A stretch of 64,000 nucleotides of DNA from Clostridia bacterium (GTDB lineage: Bacteria; Bacillota; Clostridia; Christensenellales; CAG-138). This document shows, piece after piece, positions 37,693 to 44,850 of the stretch. Both the position numbers and the translations under genes were made by a program. The stretch covers positions 1 to 64,000 of the forward strand of contig JAFXVP010000058.1 in assembly GCA_017524445.1 (NCBI GenBank). The letters run 5' to 3'. Numbering within the stretch: the stretch's first letter is position 1; each line of letters starts with the position of its first letter. Under the pieces are notes generated by a model. The model saw only the letters and a list, made by a program, of their open reading frames with translations, ran no database searches and was not told the origin of the DNA.

Positions 37693-37721
37693 TTGACAAC
37701 GAATGCCGCGGTCTCTATAAT
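37693..37721 (+). promoter_or_regulatory. Promoter of the NusG-like gene
   Basis: Consensus TTGACA (37693-37698) and TATAAT (37716-37721) with a 17-base spacer, 41 bases before the start codon. Confidence 0.92.
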
Positions 37722-37762: not shown

Positions 37763-38308
37763 ATGGAAAGCTATTGCCTGTTCTGCAAAAGCGGACAGGA
37801 AGGTCTCGTGATCGACCTTCTCATGCACGGCGGATACGACGCGTTTTCCCCGCTTGCGGTACGGAACAAGCCGGACGCGAAGGGACTTCGGAGAACGAGG
37901 GCGCGGCTGCTGCCGGGCTACGTGTTTTTCGACGCTGAGGAGGAGCCGGATTGGGAGACGATCCGCCGCTGCTCCGGCGTACTGAAGGTCCTGCGCTATG
38001 ACGACGGGAGCCCGGCGCTGCACGGGGACGATCTGGCGTTCGTGAAGTGGCTCCGGCGGTACGAGGGCATGATCGACGTGTCGCAGGTCGTCAAGGTCGG
38101 CACGAAGATCGCGTTCGTCGGCGGACCGCTCGTCGGAATGAAAGCGAAGGTCCTGAAGGTCAACAAGAGCCGCAAGACGGTGCAGATCGCGCTCGGCGAG
38201 GGCGACGCGATCTTCCGGAACATCTGGTGCACGATCGAATATATTGAGGGCAACGCGGACCTCGACGTGCTGCATCAGTCCTCGGAACAGACGGGAGAAC
38301 GAACCTGA
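37763..38308 (+). CDS. loaP: LoaP/UpxY-type NusG paralogue (operon antiterminator)
   Basis: A 181-residue NusG-like protein. Residues about 1-85 are an NGN domain (YCLFCKSGQEGLVIDLL, then LLPGYVFFDAEEE), and a KOW-type segment lies near 112-140 (KVGTKIAFVGGPLVGMKAKVLKV). Specialised NusG paralogues of the LoaP and UpxY type are found at the head of long polysaccharide operons, where they let RNA polymerase pass terminators. This one directly precedes a polysaccharide operon of more than 25 kb and has its own promoter and terminator. GGGGGAGG precedes the ATG. It is not the housekeeping nusG, which would be next to secE and ribosomal genes. Confidence 0.88.
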   Translation: MESYCLFCKSGQEGLVIDLLMHGGYDAFSPLAVRNKPDAKGLRRTRARLLPGYVFFDAEEEPDWETIRRCSGVLKVLRYDDGSPALHGDDLAFVKWLRRYEGMIDVSQVVKVGTKIAFVGGPLVGMKAKVLKVNKSRKTVQIALGEGDAIFRNIWCTIEYIEGNADLDVLHQSSEQTGERT

Positions 38309-38328
38309 CGCTTTATCGCGGAAATCCG

Positions 38329-38355
38329 ACCGGCAGTATACGGACTGCCGGTTTT
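38329..38355 (+). terminator. Intrinsic terminator after the LoaP-type gene
   Basis: CCGGCAGT-loop-ACTGCCGG followed by TTTTC. It lies between the NusG paralogue and the polysaccharide genes, where an antiterminator could act. Confidence 0.85.
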
Positions 38356-38500
38356 CTTGACGAAAAATATAACAAAATGTCGAATAATGGTAAATTGATT
38401 GACGAAATGACGCAAAAGATGTATCATGCAGCATGCGAGACGATCGCGGGTGAAGCGAAAATGATTTTTGGAACAGACAATGAATATATTCTGCCGTATA

Positions 38501-38529
38501 TTGACGCGGAACAGCCTTTTGTGTATAAT
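38501..38529 (+). promoter_or_regulatory. Promoter of the exopolysaccharide operon
   Basis: TTGACG (38501-38506) and TATAAT (38524-38529) with a 17-base spacer. About 150 bases of leader follow before the first start codon. The 38309-38685 gap holds the terminator, this promoter and the leader, and no convincing gene. Confidence 0.82.
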
Positions 38530-38625
38530 GATAACGTCTTATATTATGCGGTAATATGTGCGGACTATGCCGTGAACCGCATATTCGGACGGATTCGCAC
38601 GGAAAATTGCGAAAAAAGATCATAA

Positions 38626-38651
38626 GACGCATTTGAACAGCGCGGTGCGTC
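38626..38651 (+). promoter_or_regulatory. Leader hairpin upstream of the chain-length gene
   Basis: GACGCA (38626-38631) and TGCGTC (38646-38651) can pair around a 14-base loop in the transcribed leader. It could be the RNA signal read by the LoaP-type protein, which is known to act through a leader hairpin; this is inference. Confidence 0.35.
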
Positions 38652-38685
38652 GGGTTTAAGACATTATCAGAAAGGATAAACAGCT

Positions 38686-39468
38686 TTGGAACAGATGAGA
38701 AGGGACAACAACGAAGTCGAAATCAATCTCGGGGACGTCTTTCAGATATTGCTTTCGAAATGGATATACATTCTGCTCGCGGGCGTACTCGTCGCCGTGG
38801 CGATCGGATTGATCACGCAGTTCTTCATCAAGAAGAAGTATACGGCGTCGGTATCCATGTATGTGTTTACGACGGCGGAGCAGTACCAGACCGGTACGAT
38901 CAGTTACAGCGAACTGAACGCTGCGGACAACCTGATCAAAACCTATCAGGTCATCGTCAAGAGCAATTCGGTTCTGGACGTCGTTGCGGACCGTTTCAAT
39001 TCCGAGCATCCGGAATATGCGGCATGGAACATTCAGAGCTCGACTCTGTCGGGGATCGCGTCCGTTTCCGTTCCGGACGGAACGAAGCTGATCAAGATCA
39101 GCGTCACGTCCCGTGATCCGAAGCTGTCGGCGGATATTGCCAATACGTTTGCAAAATACGTTCCGGAGCAGATCGTCCGCATCACGAAGGCGGGCGGCGT
39201 CGAGATCGTGGACAATGCCACGGTCCCGTCCGGACCGTCCAGCCCGAATCTCACGCGGAACATCGTGATTGGGTTTGCGGCCGGTTTCATCCTCGCGGCG
39301 GTATATTTCCTGCTGCGGGCATATCTTGATACGACGATCTATACCTCCGAGGAGGTACAGAAGGTCAGCCGTTGTCCGGTGATCGGAACGGTCCCGATGA
39401 TCGTCGTCGGCGCCGAAGAAACGACGCCGTGGGAAGTCTCGCTCCGGGAGGAAATCGTCAATGAGTAA
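38686..39468 (+). CDS. Polysaccharide chain-length determinant / kinase activator (Wzz, CapA-YveK type)
   Basis: A 260-residue membrane protein with two transmembrane helices (near residues 24-46 and 195-215) flanking an extracellular part, the layout of Wzz-type chain-length regulators of Gram-positive bacteria. The C-terminal cytoplasmic tail would activate the kinase encoded next. The start is a TTG at 38686 with AGGA nine bases upstream; the next in-frame ATG is 18 bases from that site. The end overlaps the kinase gene by eight bases. Confidence 0.9.
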   Translation: MEQMRRDNNEVEINLGDVFQILLSKWIYILLAGVLVAVAIGLITQFFIKKKYTASVSMYVFTTAEQYQTGTISYSELNAADNLIKTYQVIVKSNSVLDVVADRFNSEHPEYAAWNIQSSTLSGIASVSVPDGTKLIKISVTSRDPKLSADIANTFAKYVPEQIVRITKAGGVEIVDNATVPSGPSSPNLTRNIVIGFAAGFILAAVYFLLRAYLDTTIYTSEEVQKVSRCPVIGTVPMIVVGAEETTPWEVSLREEIVNE

Positions 39469-41014
39469 GAAGATCACATTCAAACAAACCGAAAAGGACC
39501 GCAAGCAGGAAGAACGCGCACAGATCCGGGAAAACCGGAAAAAGATCCTGACGGATACCAGCGCCTTCGCGATCCGTGAAGCATACGTACAGCTTCGTAC
39601 GAACCTGATGTACAGCGTCGCGTCGATGGACGACCGCGGCTGCAAGGTGTTCGGCGTCACGAGCGCGAATCCGTCCGAGGGCAAGAGCCTGACTGCGTCA
39701 AACATCGCGGTCTCGTTCGCGATGCTCGGCAAAAAGACGCTGCTCATCGACTGCGATATGCGTAAGCCGAACGTTGCGCGTCTCTGGCATATCCACACCA
39801 AGAACGGCCTGAGCGATCTCATCGCCAAGGTCGACATCTGTGACGTCTACGGCGTTGAAGGCCTGCCGCTGTCGATCATTGCGTGCGGCAAGATCCCGCC
39901 GAATCCGTCGGAGATGCTGGCGTCCGCAGCGTTCCAGAACGCGATCGAGCGTTTCCGCAAACAGTATAATTACATCATCATCGACACGCCGCCGACCAAC
40001 GAGGTCGCGGACGCGCAGATCGTGTCGCGCGTAGTCGACGGCATGGTTCTTGTCATCCGTTCCGCCAAGACGAAGCAGCGCGACCTTGCGGAAGCGGAGA
40101 GCGTCCTGCAAAGCGCGGGCAGCCGGATCTGCGGCGTCGTCATCAACGACCTGAATCTCAAGCAGGGCGGCAAATACGGCTACAAGTACGGCTATAAGTA
40201 CGGCTACAAGTACGGCTATAAGTACGGCTACAAGTACGGTTATAAATACGGCTACCAATATGACAGCAGGAAGCCGGATATAGAAACGGAAACCAGATCC
40301 GCTTCGGTACGCAGACCCGTGAAAAAACGCGCGGCGAAGGAGATCGATTTCCATGCGCATATTCTGCCCGGACTCGACCACGGCAGCAAGGATCTCGAGA
40401 ACTCGCTTGAGCAGGTGCGGCTCGCGCAGGAAAGCGGCGTGGACGTGATCTGCGCGACCTCGCACTTCTACGGTCAGCAGGTCAGCGTGGAATCGTTCCT
40501 GGAAAGCCGCGCACGCAGCTGGCTGGAGCTTAAGGCAAATCTGGGGGAGGGCAGCCCGAGGATCGTTCTCGGCGCGGAGGTGCTGGCATTCGAAGGGATC
40601 GACCGGCTGCCGCATATCGAGGACCTCTGCCTGATGGGAACGAATCTCCTGCTGCTTGAGATGCCGTTCTCCCACTGGTCGGACCGGCTGATCGACTCCG
40701 TTGAGACGCTGAGCGAACGGCAGGATCTTAAGATCGTGCTTGCGCACGTCGACCGGTACGACCGCAAGCAGGTCGAAACGCTGCTGTCGCTTGAAAACGT
40801 CAAGGGACAGGTCAACGTATCCGCGCTGACGAAAGCTTTGCAGAGCGGCTATCTGCGCGATTGGATAAAGGAAGGGAAGATCGTCGCTGCGGGAAGCGAT
40901 ATCCACGGCACAAAGACCGGGTATACGGAATGGCAGTCCGTCAGACAGAAGTATCCGGAGGAGTGGAAGACCGTCATGCAGGAATCGGAAGCAATGCTTT
41001 CGAATCTTCTGTAA
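39461..41014 (+). CDS. Fused tyrosine kinase (BY-kinase), KYGY repeat tail and PHP-type tyrosine phosphatase
   Basis: A 517-residue fusion. Residues about 30-235 are a bacterial tyrosine kinase with Walker A SANPSEGKS, Walker A' LLIDCDMRKP and Walker B YIIIDTPP. Residues 238-265 are seven exact KYGY repeats (bases 40172-40255), a tyrosine-rich tail of the kind such kinases autophosphorylate. Residues 296-517 are a CpsB/CapC-like PHP phosphatase with DFHAH, TSHF, GAEVL, LAHVDRY and GSDIHG as metal-binding motifs. In most Firmicutes the kinase and phosphatase are separate proteins. Here the enzyme that writes and the one that erases the tail are one chain. It controls polymer length and export with the preceding gene. 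Confidence 0.93.
   Translation: MSKKITFKQTEKDRKQEERAQIRENRKKILTDTSAFAIREAYVQLRTNLMYSVASMDDRGCKVFGVTSANPSEGKSLTASNIAVSFAMLGKKTLLIDCDMRKPNVARLWHIHTKNGLSDLIAKVDICDVYGVEGLPLSIIACGKIPPNPSEMLASAAFQNAIERFRKQYNYIIIDTPPTNEVADAQIVSRVVDGMVLVIRSAKTKQRDLAEAESVLQSAGSRICGVVINDLNLKQGGKYGYKYGYKYGYKYGYKYGYKYGYKYGYQYDSRKPDIETETRSASVRRPVKKRAAKEIDFHAHILPGLDHGSKDLENSLEQVRLAQESGVDVICATSHFYGQQVSVESFLESRARSWLELKANLGEGSPRIVLGAEVLAFEGIDRLPHIEDLCLMGTNLLLLEMPFSHWSDRLIDSVETLSERQDLKIVLAHVDRYDRKQVETLLSLENVKGQVNVSALTKALQSGYLRDWIKEGKIVAAGSDIHGTKTGYTEWQSVRQKYPEEWKTVMQESEAMLSNLL
40172..40255 (+). repeat. Seven 12-base tandem repeats encoding KYGY
   Basis: AAGTACGGCTAC-type units repeated seven times in frame. The last codon alternates TAC, TAT, TAC, TAT, giving a 24-base higher-order period over most of the array. 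Confidence 0.95.
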
Positions 41015-41189
41015 GGACCGCAGAGAAAAAAGGGGAAAAGAGACCGAAACGAGCGGTGCGCGGCCATAGTCGCCCCGCAAACGGCCGGTCGAACAAAGCG
41101 GATCTTGCGTGATGCGGAGCGAACAGACGCGCCGTATGCCGAAGGCAACGCAAAATTCGCCGAAATCCGATCAAAGGGAGGCCCCTGTT

Positions 41190-42734
41190 TTGGAAGAATT
41201 CAGCAGTCTACAGACCGAACAACCAAAGAAACCGAAAAAGACGAAAAAAAAGAGGATCGTTCTTTGGATCATCCTCGGCATACTGGCGCTTGCGCTGATC
41301 GGCGGCGGGATCTACGCCTGGCATATTCTGAAGCGGCCCGATGCGTTTTTTGATACATCCGTTCGCGTAAATACCGTACAGACGTCCGAGCCGACGCCTG
41401 CCTTCGATATCGAAGCGTACCTTCCGACGGCGGAACCGGGCGCAACGCCGATCCCGGCGCCCGCCGTACAGCAGACGGCGGTCCCGACCGAGCAGCCGGA
41501 GAAAGACGCGCCTTTGACGGGCATCGTCAATATCGCGCTGTTCGGGATCGACGCTTATGAGGACGGATCGTCGACAAGCGGATCCATGCCGCACACCGAC
41601 GCGAATATGATCGTTGCGATCAACTTCGACACGAAGGAAGTCAGCCTGATCTCCATTGCGCGCGACTGCCTGACGACCGCGCCGGGCTATACCGGTTTTT
41701 ACAAATTCAACGGCATATTCAACGTCGGCGGCGGTATGGCAGATCCGAAAGCGGGTCTTGCGCTGAGCTGCCGCGCGGCGGAGGAATGGCTCGGCGGCGT
41801 TTCCGTTCCGTATTATTACGGCGTGGATTTCCAGGCGGTGATCGATCTGGTCGATCTGATCGGCGGAGTTGATTTTGATCTGGATATCCGCGTGAAAACG
41901 CTTGACGGCAAATACATCAAGCCGGGGCATCGTCATCTTGACGGACAGGGCGTCATGGCATATATGCGTATGCGCCGCAGCGCAGGCGGGCTTGACTCTA
42001 AGCGAACCGCACGGCAGCGCAAGATGCTGGTCACGATCTTCAAAAAGCTCAAGCAGGAAGGCAAGCTTTCGATGATCCCGGATCTTCTTAAGACGATGGG
42101 GGACAACGTCTATACAAACACGACGCTCTCCCAGACGGCGGCCCTTGCCAATTTTGCAAAGGATATCGATCCGGACAGCATCAGGACCTACAGCATCCAC
42201 GGCGGCATCCAGATGAAATACGACTGGGCGTTCTGCTTTATCGATCAGCAGACCCGCCTTGACGCCATCAAGGATGTATACGGATTTGACGCGGAGCCGA
42301 TGCGGATCGATTCGACGGTTTATGAGACGTTCCTGCATGAAAGCGGATTCCGGGCGATCCAGTATCAGGGGATCGCAAAAAAGCTCTTTGCAGCCATCCA
42401 TGAGATCGCCGACGAGAAATCCATGAGCGAAGAACAGAAAACGGCATACGCTCTCTGCTGGCAGGATTATGAGAATCTGAAGAAAATGTTTCAGACGGTC
42501 GATCAATGGACGCAGGCGCATTATGACGGAAAGGTTCGCCTGACGGATGAGGAACTGCGAACGCGCAGTGAGTATTACAGAGCGCTTCAGAATCTTGAAA
42601 CGAAACTGAAGAATTCGGGAGACGCGCTGAACAAGCTGTTCAACGAACCGATCAGCCCGAGATGGGATTACAGTGTCGCTCTTTGGTATAGTGCATACAG
42701 CGATATCAACGAGGTATACGTCGATTTCCGCTGA
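41190..42734 (+). CDS. LytR-CpsA-Psr (LCP) family glycopolymer ligase
   Basis: A 514-residue membrane-anchored protein. A lysine-rich head is followed by one transmembrane helix (near residues 20-45), a linker rich in Pro, Thr and Glu, and then the LCP domain: NIALFGIDAYE, SISIARD-like LISIARDCL, and GHRHLDGQGVMAYMRMRR with the arginines that hold the polyprenyl pyrophosphate. Such enzymes attach polysaccharides to peptidoglycan. About 150 residues beyond the LCP domain are not recognised. The start is a TTG at 41190 with AGGGAGG upstream. Earlier in-frame GTG and ATG codons have no ribosome site. The 175-base gap before it shows nothing else. Confidence 0.88.
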   Translation: MEEFSSLQTEQPKKPKKTKKKRIVLWIILGILALALIGGGIYAWHILKRPDAFFDTSVRVNTVQTSEPTPAFDIEAYLPTAEPGATPIPAPAVQQTAVPTEQPEKDAPLTGIVNIALFGIDAYEDGSSTSGSMPHTDANMIVAINFDTKEVSLISIARDCLTTAPGYTGFYKFNGIFNVGGGMADPKAGLALSCRAAEEWLGGVSVPYYYGVDFQAVIDLVDLIGGVDFDLDIRVKTLDGKYIKPGHRHLDGQGVMAYMRMRRSAGGLDSKRTARQRKMLVTIFKKLKQEGKLSMIPDLLKTMGDNVYTNTTLSQTAALANFAKDIDPDSIRTYSIHGGIQMKYDWAFCFIDQQTRLDAIKDVYGFDAEPMRIDSTVYETFLHESGFRAIQYQGIAKKLFAAIHEIADEKSMSEEQKTAYALCWQDYENLKKMFQTVDQWTQAHYDGKVRLTDEELRTRSEYYRALQNLETKLKNSGDALNKLFNEPISPRWDYSVALWYSAYSDINEVYVDFR

Positions 42735-42792: not shown

Positions 42793-44850
42793 ATGAACGA
42801 GTACACGATTGAACAACAGCCGGGTAAGAAAAAGGGAAAGAAGAAGCTGCTCTTTACCCTTCTTCTCGGCACATACGATTTCATAGCCGTCTGCATCGCT
42901 TATTTCCTGGCGCTGTGGATGCGGTTTGATTTCTTTTATTCACATATTGAGCAGAAGTATCTGGATGCGTTCAGCCACTTTATCCTGTTCTACGGCGCGT
43001 TTTCCGTTCTGATCCTGTGGCTGTTCCGGCTGTACAAGACCCTGTGGAGATACATCGGGATCAGAGAGCTCGTTCGAACGCTCGGCGTCTCCCTGATGCT
43101 TTCCGTTATACACGCCGTTGCGATCACGCTGATCTTCTGGCATCGCATGCCGATCTCCTATTATATCGGCGGCGCAATGATCCAGGCAGCGCTTTTGATC
43201 GGCATCCGGTTTTCCGCACGTCTGTTGGACGATTGGCATAAGAGAAGAAACCTCAGTCATACAGACCTGAAGCGTGTCATGCTGATCGGCGCAGGGAATG
43301 CGGGACAGCTGATATTAAAGGACATGGTCGCAAATCCGGGTACGCAGGACAAAGTCGTCTGTATCATCGACGATGATCCGAATAAACAGAACCGTTATAT
43401 TGACGGCATTCCGATCATCGGCGGACGTGAAAGCATCCTTGCCGGTGTGGAAAAGTATCACGTCGAAAAGATCTTTCTGGCGATCCCGAGCGCGACGGCG
43501 GAACAGAAACGCGACATCCTGGCGATCTGCAGCGAAACCGCCTGCGAACTCAAACAGCTGCCGGGTATTTTCCAGCTGATTTCCGGTCAGGTGACTGTCA
43601 ACGAAATGCGGGACGTTGCGGTAGAGGACCTTCTGGGACGCGATCCGATCCGTCCGGATCTGTCGGGCGTGTATTCGTTCATCAACGGCAAAACCGTTCT
43701 CGTGACCGGCGGCGGCGGCTCCATCGGCAGCGAGCTCTGCCGTCAGATCGCAGCGCACAAGCCGAAGCAGCTGATCATATTCGACGTATATGAAAACAAC
43801 GCGTATGACATTCAGCAGGAGCTGAAGGATCAGTACCCGACGATGGATCTTGTCGTGCTGATCGGTTCCGTCCGCGACAGCCGCAGGATGTTCAAGGTGT
43901 TCGATACCTACCGTCCGCAGATCGTCTACCACGCGGCGGCGCACAAGCACGTTCCGCTGATGGAGGACAGTCCGTGCGAGGCGATCAAGAACAACGTCCT
44001 CGGTACATACAAGACCGCGTATGCCGCCATGGTCCACGGCTGCGAGCGTTTCGTGCTCATCTCCACGGACAAGGCGGTCAACCCGACCAACGTCATGGGC
44101 GCGAGCAAGCGTCTTTGCGAAATGATCGTGCAGTGCTTCGACGCCAAGATCAAGGCGGGCAAGGCGAACGAGATCCCGCAGCTTTTCACGCATGAGGGCT
44201 GTGAAAATGCCGACAAGGACGGCACGGGCAGCGTGTTCCGCGGGATCAGAACGGAGTTTGTCGCCGTGCGGTTCGGAAACGTTCTCGGCAGCAACGGCTC
44301 CGTTATCCCGCTGTTCAAAAAGCAGATCGCGAAGGGCGGACCGGTCACGGTCACGCATCCGGACGTCGTCCGTTACTTCATGACGATCCCAGAGGCAGTG
44401 AGTCTGGTCTTGCTTGCGGGCACTTACGCAAAGGGCGGAGAGATCTTCGTGCTGGATATGGGAAGCCCGGTCAGGATCGATACGCTTGCGAGAAATCTCA
44501 TCCGTCAGGCGGGGCTCAAGCCGGACGTCGATATCAAAATCGAGTATACAGGGCTTCGTCCCGGCGAAAAGCTGTATGAGGAAAAGCTGATGATGGAGGA
44601 AGGTCTCACAAAGACAGAAAACGAGCTGATCCATATCGGAAAACCGATCCGGTTTGATCAGGACATTCTTTTCAAAAACCTCAGCACCCTGATGAACGCA
44701 GCATACGCGAACGACGATCATATTCGCGAGCTTTTGATCGACGTCGTTCCGACCTATTCGCCCGCAAACAACAAGCCGGATAAGCCGGTGATCACCGTTT
44801 ACGGAACGGACGGAGAGGAAAAGAAAGACGAGCTGCATGCGGCGGGTTAA
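42793..44850 (+). CDS. Membrane-anchored UDP-sugar 4,6-dehydratase (PglF/CapD/FlaA1-like)
   Basis: A 685-residue protein with four N-terminal transmembrane helices (residues about 15-135), a first Rossmann-like region (LIGAGNAGQLIL near 170), and a C-terminal dehydratase domain (VTGGGGSIGSELC near 303, and STDKAVNPTNVMGASKR). STDKA matches the active site of UDP-GlcNAc 4,6-dehydratases such as PglF. It should make UDP-4-keto-6-deoxy-GlcNAc, the substrate for the aminotransferase at 45381. CGGAG lies ten bases before the ATG. Its end overlaps the VanZ-like gene by 14 bases. Confidence 0.92.
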   Translation: MNEYTIEQQPGKKKGKKKLLFTLLLGTYDFIAVCIAYFLALWMRFDFFYSHIEQKYLDAFSHFILFYGAFSVLILWLFRLYKTLWRYIGIRELVRTLGVSLMLSVIHAVAITLIFWHRMPISYYIGGAMIQAALLIGIRFSARLLDDWHKRRNLSHTDLKRVMLIGAGNAGQLILKDMVANPGTQDKVVCIIDDDPNKQNRYIDGIPIIGGRESILAGVEKYHVEKIFLAIPSATAEQKRDILAICSETACELKQLPGIFQLISGQVTVNEMRDVAVEDLLGRDPIRPDLSGVYSFINGKTVLVTGGGGSIGSELCRQIAAHKPKQLIIFDVYENNAYDIQQELKDQYPTMDLVVLIGSVRDSRRMFKVFDTYRPQIVYHAAAHKHVPLMEDSPCEAIKNNVLGTYKTAYAAMVHGCERFVLISTDKAVNPTNVMGASKRLCEMIVQCFDAKIKAGKANEIPQLFTHEGCENADKDGTGSVFRGIRTEFVAVRFGNVLGSNGSVIPLFKKQIAKGGPVTVTHPDVVRYFMTIPEAVSLVLLAGTYAKGGEIFVLDMGSPVRIDTLARNLIRQAGLKPDVDIKIEYTGLRPGEKLYEEKLMMEEGLTKTENELIHIGKPIRFDQDILFKNLSTLMNAAYANDDHIRELLIDVVPTYSPANNKPDKPVITVYGTDGEEKKDELHAAG

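Follow-up and report, generated by a model that had tools for sequence, protein, structure and literature searches.

A BY-kinase, its tyrosine tail and a CpsB/CapC-type PHP phosphatase joined in one reading frame in a group of rumen bacteria

A single gene in the window, that is, the whole stretch of 64,000 nucleotides analysed here (contig JAFXVP010000058.1), encodes a BY-kinase, its tyrosine-rich tail and a phosphatase of the opposing type as one polypeptide, and the same architecture was found in related bacteria of the same genus. We consider it probable, at roughly 70%, that this protein is a PCP-2b BY-kinase (CapB/CpsD-like) tethered to its CpsB/CapC-type PHP phosphatase, forming a self-contained unit of a Wzy-type polysaccharide machine. 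As both parts belong to known families and the two enzymes are known to oppose each other, the fusion is best described as a known system in a new domain architecture.

The fused gene and its tyrosine ladder

The original prediction of one uninterrupted plus-strand frame, carrying kinase, substrate tail and opposing phosphatase, in which the tail helps to connect the two enzymes, was borne out (Table 1), and these three parts have been kept by selection. The Walker motifs, which it had described as intact, are all present in the window gene; A, A' and B were likewise found in 10 of the 11 distinct fused genes, whilst in the remaining one a contig end removes A and A'. The two enzymes are recognized by separate family models: TIGR01007 (BY-kinase) matches residues 40-243 of the fusion against a curated cutoff of 108.05 bits, and PF19567 (CpsB_CapC) matches residues 295-486 against a curated cutoff of 27. 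When compared by sequence with solved structures, the N-terminal half resembled the CapB, VpsO and Wzc kinases and the C-terminal half YwqE, and a profile search with the phosphatase half matched 3qy6, 2wjd and 3qy8 (YwqE, CpsB) at E values of 1e-44 to 1e-46. No solved chain spanning both kinase and PHP was present among the matches listed in the sequence comparison. The 50 Foldseek rows listed were all BY-kinases.

Table 1. Coordinates of the fused gene, its parts and the neighbouring genes in the window; residue numbers are those of the fusion.
Feature	Position	Strand	Remarks
NusG/LoaP-like antiterminator gene, first of the cluster	37763..38308	+	PF02357 35.2 bits (cutoff 22.2); NF033641 LoaP 64.3 bits, under cutoff of 125
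Membrane adaptor of the kinase, CapA/Wzz-like (PCP-2b partner); start codon TTG	38686..39468	+	PF02706 Wzz and PF13807 GNVR above cutoff
Fused BY-kinase / tyrosine tail / PHP phosphatase gene	39461..41014	+	517 aa, one uninterrupted frame
BY-kinase domain, residues 31-236	39551..40168	+	TIGR01007 185.8 bits; CapB/Wzc structures by sequence and fold
Walker A SANPSEGKS, residues 68-76	39662..39688	+	intact
Walker A' LLIDCDMRKP, residues 94-103	39740..39769	+	intact
Walker B YIIIDTPP, residues 171-178	39971..39994	+	intact
Tyrosine ladder GKYGY(KYGY)6QY, residues 237-267	40169..40261	+	15 Tyr, i+2 spacing; 12/24-bp DNA tandem repeat
Variable linker, residues 268-293 (26 residues)	40262..40339	+	dN/dS 0.50; pLDDT mostly <50; no in-frame ATG
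CpsB/CapC-type PHP phosphatase domain, DHG variant, residues 294-517	40340..41011	+	PF19567 69.2 bits; CpsB and YwqE by profile; metal-site comparison
LytR-CpsA-Psr (LCP) glycopolymer transferase, next gene	41109..42734	+	PF03816 91.3 bits
CapD-like polysaccharide biosynthesis dehydratase	42793..44850	+	PF02719 383.3 bits

Unlike the BY-kinase norm, in which the tail is a free C-terminus, 250 residues follow the tail of the window fusion; this is a departure in position, by which no part of the kinase is lost. The seven KYGY repeats (14 tyrosines) of the original prediction are indeed there, and with the final QY the tyrosines form an unbroken ladder over residues 239-267, such as was found in none of 10000 shuffles of residues 237-293. 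The tandem repeat encoding the KYGY units lies at 40171-40255 of the window. The tails of the fused relatives are not all equally long, and some differ by a single unit of four residues (12 bp), so that the tail can grow or shrink with the frame intact.

The ladders have 7-15 rungs in the fused genes and 3-14 in the split relatives, whilst the range is 1-12, and the median near 3, in 30 BY-kinase frames from the genome-search loci, among which are the close split relatives L014-L016 and L113. The comparison was based on these 30 frames because the loci of the genome_contigs scan had been chosen partly by the pattern KYGYKYGY and their tail statistics are therefore biased. Since split relatives carry ladders of up to 14 rungs, the fusion did not give rise to the long tyrosine tail, which, to judge from the sequences compared, is older than it.

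Distribution and origin of the fusion

Among 103 family genomes searched at the protein level, 23 of them in the genus of the window, both domains lay in one frame in 10, all within that genus (10/23); in one of these, G022 (locus L013), the gene is cut by a contig end. Besides these ten and one genome with split genes (G016), the genus held 12 genomes with no match at 1e-30, so that the system is not essential, though many of the assemblies are incomplete; this is counted against our preferred reading. The genome_contigs scan gave 79 loci and added one further distinct fused gene (L039), in an unplaced MAG, along with duplicates of others; examination of all frames of 111 loci gave 20 fused frames, which represent 11 distinct genes, out of a total of 48 distinct kinase/PHP pairs. 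The carriers form a group of related rumen bacteria.

An in-frame join made during assembly, the artefact which the original prediction had named as fatal to it, was looked for and rejected. The named sources are nearly all metagenome-assembled and the assembly of the window genome is incomplete, which would favour such an error; however, the ten other distinct fused genes are 76-91% identical and come from different animals and assembly projects, which already refutes it, and the probability left to this explanation is negligible.

The search for BY-kinase-PHP fusions that had been proposed as a check gave the 11 distinct genes and no other confirmed case in the samples of the class and phylum. 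In 391 class genomes (207 with PF19567) there was no PHP frame longer than 315 aa among the matches listed. The phylum sample of 398 genomes (164 with PF19567) contained seven PHP frames of 326-525 aa among the matches listed, none of which is a fusion: the kinase lies in a different frame in six and no kinase was found in the seventh. A protein search of the 398 phylum genomes gave no other stop-free match across both domains among the matches listed. Plasmid sequences yielded 756 matching records (15 listed), three of them with one place covering at least 80% of the query; two unannotated matches that were checked are split genes and an annotated one is a three-gene operon. Twenty-six phage records matched (10 listed), none covering 80% of the query. 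A PHP frame of 414 aa in the same genus (G004), lying close to the end of its contig, proved to be a PHP of the usual kind. No BY-kinase::PHP fusion was found in the literature searched, in which subscription papers and preprints had limited coverage.

The split relatives point to the source of the fused gene. In G016, of the same genus, a kinase 85% identical to that of the window is followed by a separate adjacent PHP gene, and adjacent pairs with the kinase first were also found in G089, G071 and G536 (another genus) and in G069, the identity of the split-relative matches to the window being 44-85%. In these pairs there is either a stop codon and a new start (ATG) between the genes, or the genes overlap in different frames. 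The PHP tree places the 11 fused genes in one clade (support 99/96), with the split gene of G016 as nearest neighbour. In the kinase tree, comprising ten fused rows since the kinase of L013 is cut by the contig end, the fused label requires a single change, although the support is lower (71/94); a single origin is thus backed only weakly on this side, and the 71% bootstrap is counted against our preferred reading. Loci L052, L071 and L084, in which the PHP is broken or cut, were left out of both trees. The trees fit one fusion event from adjacent genes.

No reversion to two genes was seen among the 11 fused genes, and in 10 of them there is no in-frame ATG between kinase and phosphatase. L013 has such an ATG directly before the EIDFH of its PHP, which may be left over from the start codon of a once separate phosphatase. 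These sites bear on whether the working forms are two proteins, produced by cleavage of the linker or by an internal start for the phosphatase. The linker is disordered and basic, and both the ATG of G022 and an in-frame GTG at the same place in three genes would suit this explanation, but the lack of an in-frame ATG in the other ten genes speaks against it, as does the window GTG (residue 288), which has no evident ribosome site upstream; we regard it as very improbable.

Selection, predicted structure and the phosphatase site

Median dN/dS over the 45 pairs of the 10 full-length fused genes (L013 being left out) was 0.069 for the kinase, 0.084 for the tail, 0.50 for the linker and 0.155 for the phosphatase. 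Purifying selection acts on kinase, tail and phosphatase, and far less on the linker; the low values in the first three as against that of the linker indicate that the functional parts have been kept, with the linker close to a free tether. In the AlphaFold2 model the kinase and PHP blocks mostly have pLDDT >90 (the last PHP block 87), residues 235-284, about 50 disordered residues, are nearly all <50, and the pTM is 0.51. The model is thus of two confident domains without a fixed mutual arrangement and with a flexible tether between them.

Constraint on the PHP domain is alike in fused genes (0.158) and in four split relatives (0.193, 6 pairs). This equality and the nearly free linker sequence would also agree with a nearly neutral joining of adjacent, co-translated genes, after which the enzymes act in trans as CpsB and CpsD do and the joint changes nothing important; that the split relatives are already adjacent in the same order, and that the long tail predates the fusion, can be read in the same way. 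However, all 11 descendants have stayed fused although a stop and a start codon would suffice for reversion, and 10 of the 11 have lost the in-frame ATG for separate synthesis of the phosphatase. A neutral joining is therefore unlikely in our judgement, and we prefer the tethered unit described at the outset.

The claim that the PHP phosphatase is complete with all its metal motifs stood only in part. The metal ligands of Cps4B are H5, H7, D14, H42, E80, E108, H136, D199 and H201, of which Asp14 binds the third metal, M3 (PMC2777267). Eight of the nine (H5, H7, H42, E80, E108, H136, D199 and H201) are kept in the window fusion and identical in 11/11 fused genes, and the catalytic Arg139 (R432 in the window fusion) is also kept in 11/11; Asp14, on the other hand, is replaced by His307 and Arg206, the second arginine that binds phosphate, by Gly487. 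These two residues unlike Cps4B are counted against our preferred reading. The Asp14 column holds His, itself a possible ligand, in 11/11 fused genes and in 8/8 close split rows, so that this change predates the fusion; it is also His in 1 of 26 more distant split rows. At the Arg206 column all 11 fused genes have Gly and the eight close split relatives have also lost the Arg, whilst the 26 more distant split PHPs have R in 14 and another residue in 12, which means that Arg206 is no strict mark of the family. The proteins with His for Asp14 and without Arg206 (L012, L014, L015, L016, L045, L046, L048, L050 and all fused loci) constitute a DHG subfamily of CpsB/CapC phosphatases. L051 has His at the Asp14 column but retains an Arg after its SDxH motif.

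The loss of an M3 ligand and of Arg206 throughout the fused genes could be taken to mean that the PHP part is no longer active as a tyrosine phosphatase and that its role is to cap or dock the tail. Against this stand the eight ligands and the key Arg139, the absence of Arg206 from so many distant split PHPs, the low dN/dS of the phosphatase, and the report that Cps4B R206A retains about 40% activity as compared with 5% for R139A (PMC2777267); an inactive domain is accordingly quite improbable. Since His is able to bind metal and the R206A enzyme keeps part of its activity, we expect from the sequence that the fused PHP is an active phosphatase, perhaps with a different metal preference.

Genomic context, known systems and a proposed cycle

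The fused gene lies among genes of polysaccharide synthesis. The CapA/Wzz gene, for which the best NCBIfam match is TIGR01006 (138.5 bits, under its cutoff of 296), overlaps the kinase gene by 8 bp and is directly upstream in 10/10 fused loci having upstream sequence; a LoaP-like gene is upstream in 9/10 of these, and the LCP gene is downstream in 11/11 fused loci. Beyond the CapD-like gene follow genes for a VanZ-like protein, an aminotransferase, a glycosyltransferase and a sugar transferase. Judged from the genes between LoaP and the sugar transferase alone, this looks like a Gram-positive Wzy-type capsular or exopolysaccharide cluster.

Its closest counterparts are the PCP-2b systems CpsBCD and CapABC of Streptococcus pneumoniae and Staphylococcus aureus, in which a polysaccharide operon likewise encodes a membrane adaptor, a BY-kinase with a tyrosine tail and a PHP phosphatase alongside an LCP ligase; there, however, kinase and phosphatase are separate, whereas in the window they form one chain with the tail internal. 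PtkA and PtpZ (YwqD and YwqE) of Bacillus subtilis belong to the same two families, YwqE being the nearest solved PHP by profile, and their genes share an operon (PMC4304235), but they too are separate proteins. In the Gram-negative PCP-2a pair Wzc/Wzb a kinase with a stepwise-phosphorylated YxY tail is similarly found at the cytoplasmic face, but in Wzc it is the adaptor that is fused to the kinase and not the phosphatase, and Wzb is an unrelated low-molecular-weight phosphatase. The split pairs of G016, G089, G071, G536 and G069 share gene order, tyrosine-ladder tails and the DHG phosphatase subfamily with the fusion and differ in being two genes, thus providing a natural control.

For Wzc it has been reported that the tail of each protomer sits in the active site of its neighbour within an octameric ring, that a YxY ratchet phosphorylates the tail step by step in the C-to-N direction, and that the octamer disassembles at about four phosphates; its authors suggest that the phosphatase acts once the octamer is disassembled (PMC11986026). 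Phosphorylation cycling is needed for polymer production (PMC11986026; review PMC12220298). The tail of the window fusion is itself a YxY ladder, without a break and of unusual length. By analogy, the membrane adaptor encoded upstream of the fusion would activate the kinase, which would form a ring; the tyrosine ladder of one subunit would thread the active site of the next and be phosphorylated stepwise until the ring breaks apart, and the phosphatase, anchored some 28 residues past the last tyrosine, would dephosphorylate the tail on the same subunit or on an adjacent one, allowing the ring to re-form. We infer the two enzyme activities, ring formation, action in cis and any effect on polymer length.

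The tether would hold the enzymes at a 1:1 ratio and a millimolar-range local concentration. A worm-like chain estimate, with an assumed persistence length of 4 A, gives each tail tyrosine a local concentration of 4-22 mM at the phosphatase, which by this estimate would be enough for dephosphorylation in cis whatever the protein level. With ratio and local concentration so fixed, the off-rate would be independent of the amount of any separate phosphatase, and as the phosphatase is fused at the C-terminal end of the tail, it is closest to those tyrosines that should receive phosphate first. The original prediction had suggested that the cycle may be intramolecular and that it could make a self-resetting timer for chain length. 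In the BY-kinases studied, tails are phosphorylated from neighbour to neighbour (PMC11986026), so that phosphorylation probably takes place between subunits; action in cis would be easy for dephosphorylation alone, and the term intramolecular is best restricted to resetting. In Wzc the end of the tail is free and its C-terminal tyrosines are phosphorylated first, whereas the end of the fusion's ladder is anchored, so that it must enter the active site as a loop, a point counted against our preferred reading.

A more tentative extension, which we think possible but would not back at present, is a self-resetting ratchet: the ring would count up the ladder from the phosphatase end and break at a threshold, the phosphatase would reset its own tail in cis, and the ladder (in 12-bp steps) together with the linker length would determine the period, and through it the length of the polymer, whatever the protein concentration. 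One proposal for how kinase and phosphatase cycling on a BY-kinase tail sets the chain length of a polysaccharide is that the phosphatase gains access to the tail only once the ring is disassembled (PMC11986026). A fusion in which the phosphatase cannot leave, with sister species in which the genes are unfused, makes a ready-made test of that proposal; it also offers a single-chain object for structure and kinetics, and the natural comparison of fused with split forms is of interest in itself.

Some minor features of the locus and genome may be added. A perfect TTGACA-17-TATAAT promoter match lies in front of the LoaP-like gene (37693-37721), and the leader of about 375 bp between the LoaP and CapA genes (38310-38685) contains several promoter-like sites (38399-38427, 38501-38529) and an 82-aa ORF with no Pfam match. 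The window genome has a second BY-kinase of 514 aa (L002, G000:C20:22132-22746), in which a Wzz part is fused to the kinase and the tail, YDYGYGYGYYYG, is short. In the genome as assembled, at 84.7% completeness, PF19567 matches once and LMW-PTP not at all, which speaks for our preferred reading, whilst six matches to the general PHP-superfamily model lie on other contigs. With one PF19567 match and no recognized LMW-PTP, both kinases may have to rely on the fused phosphatase.
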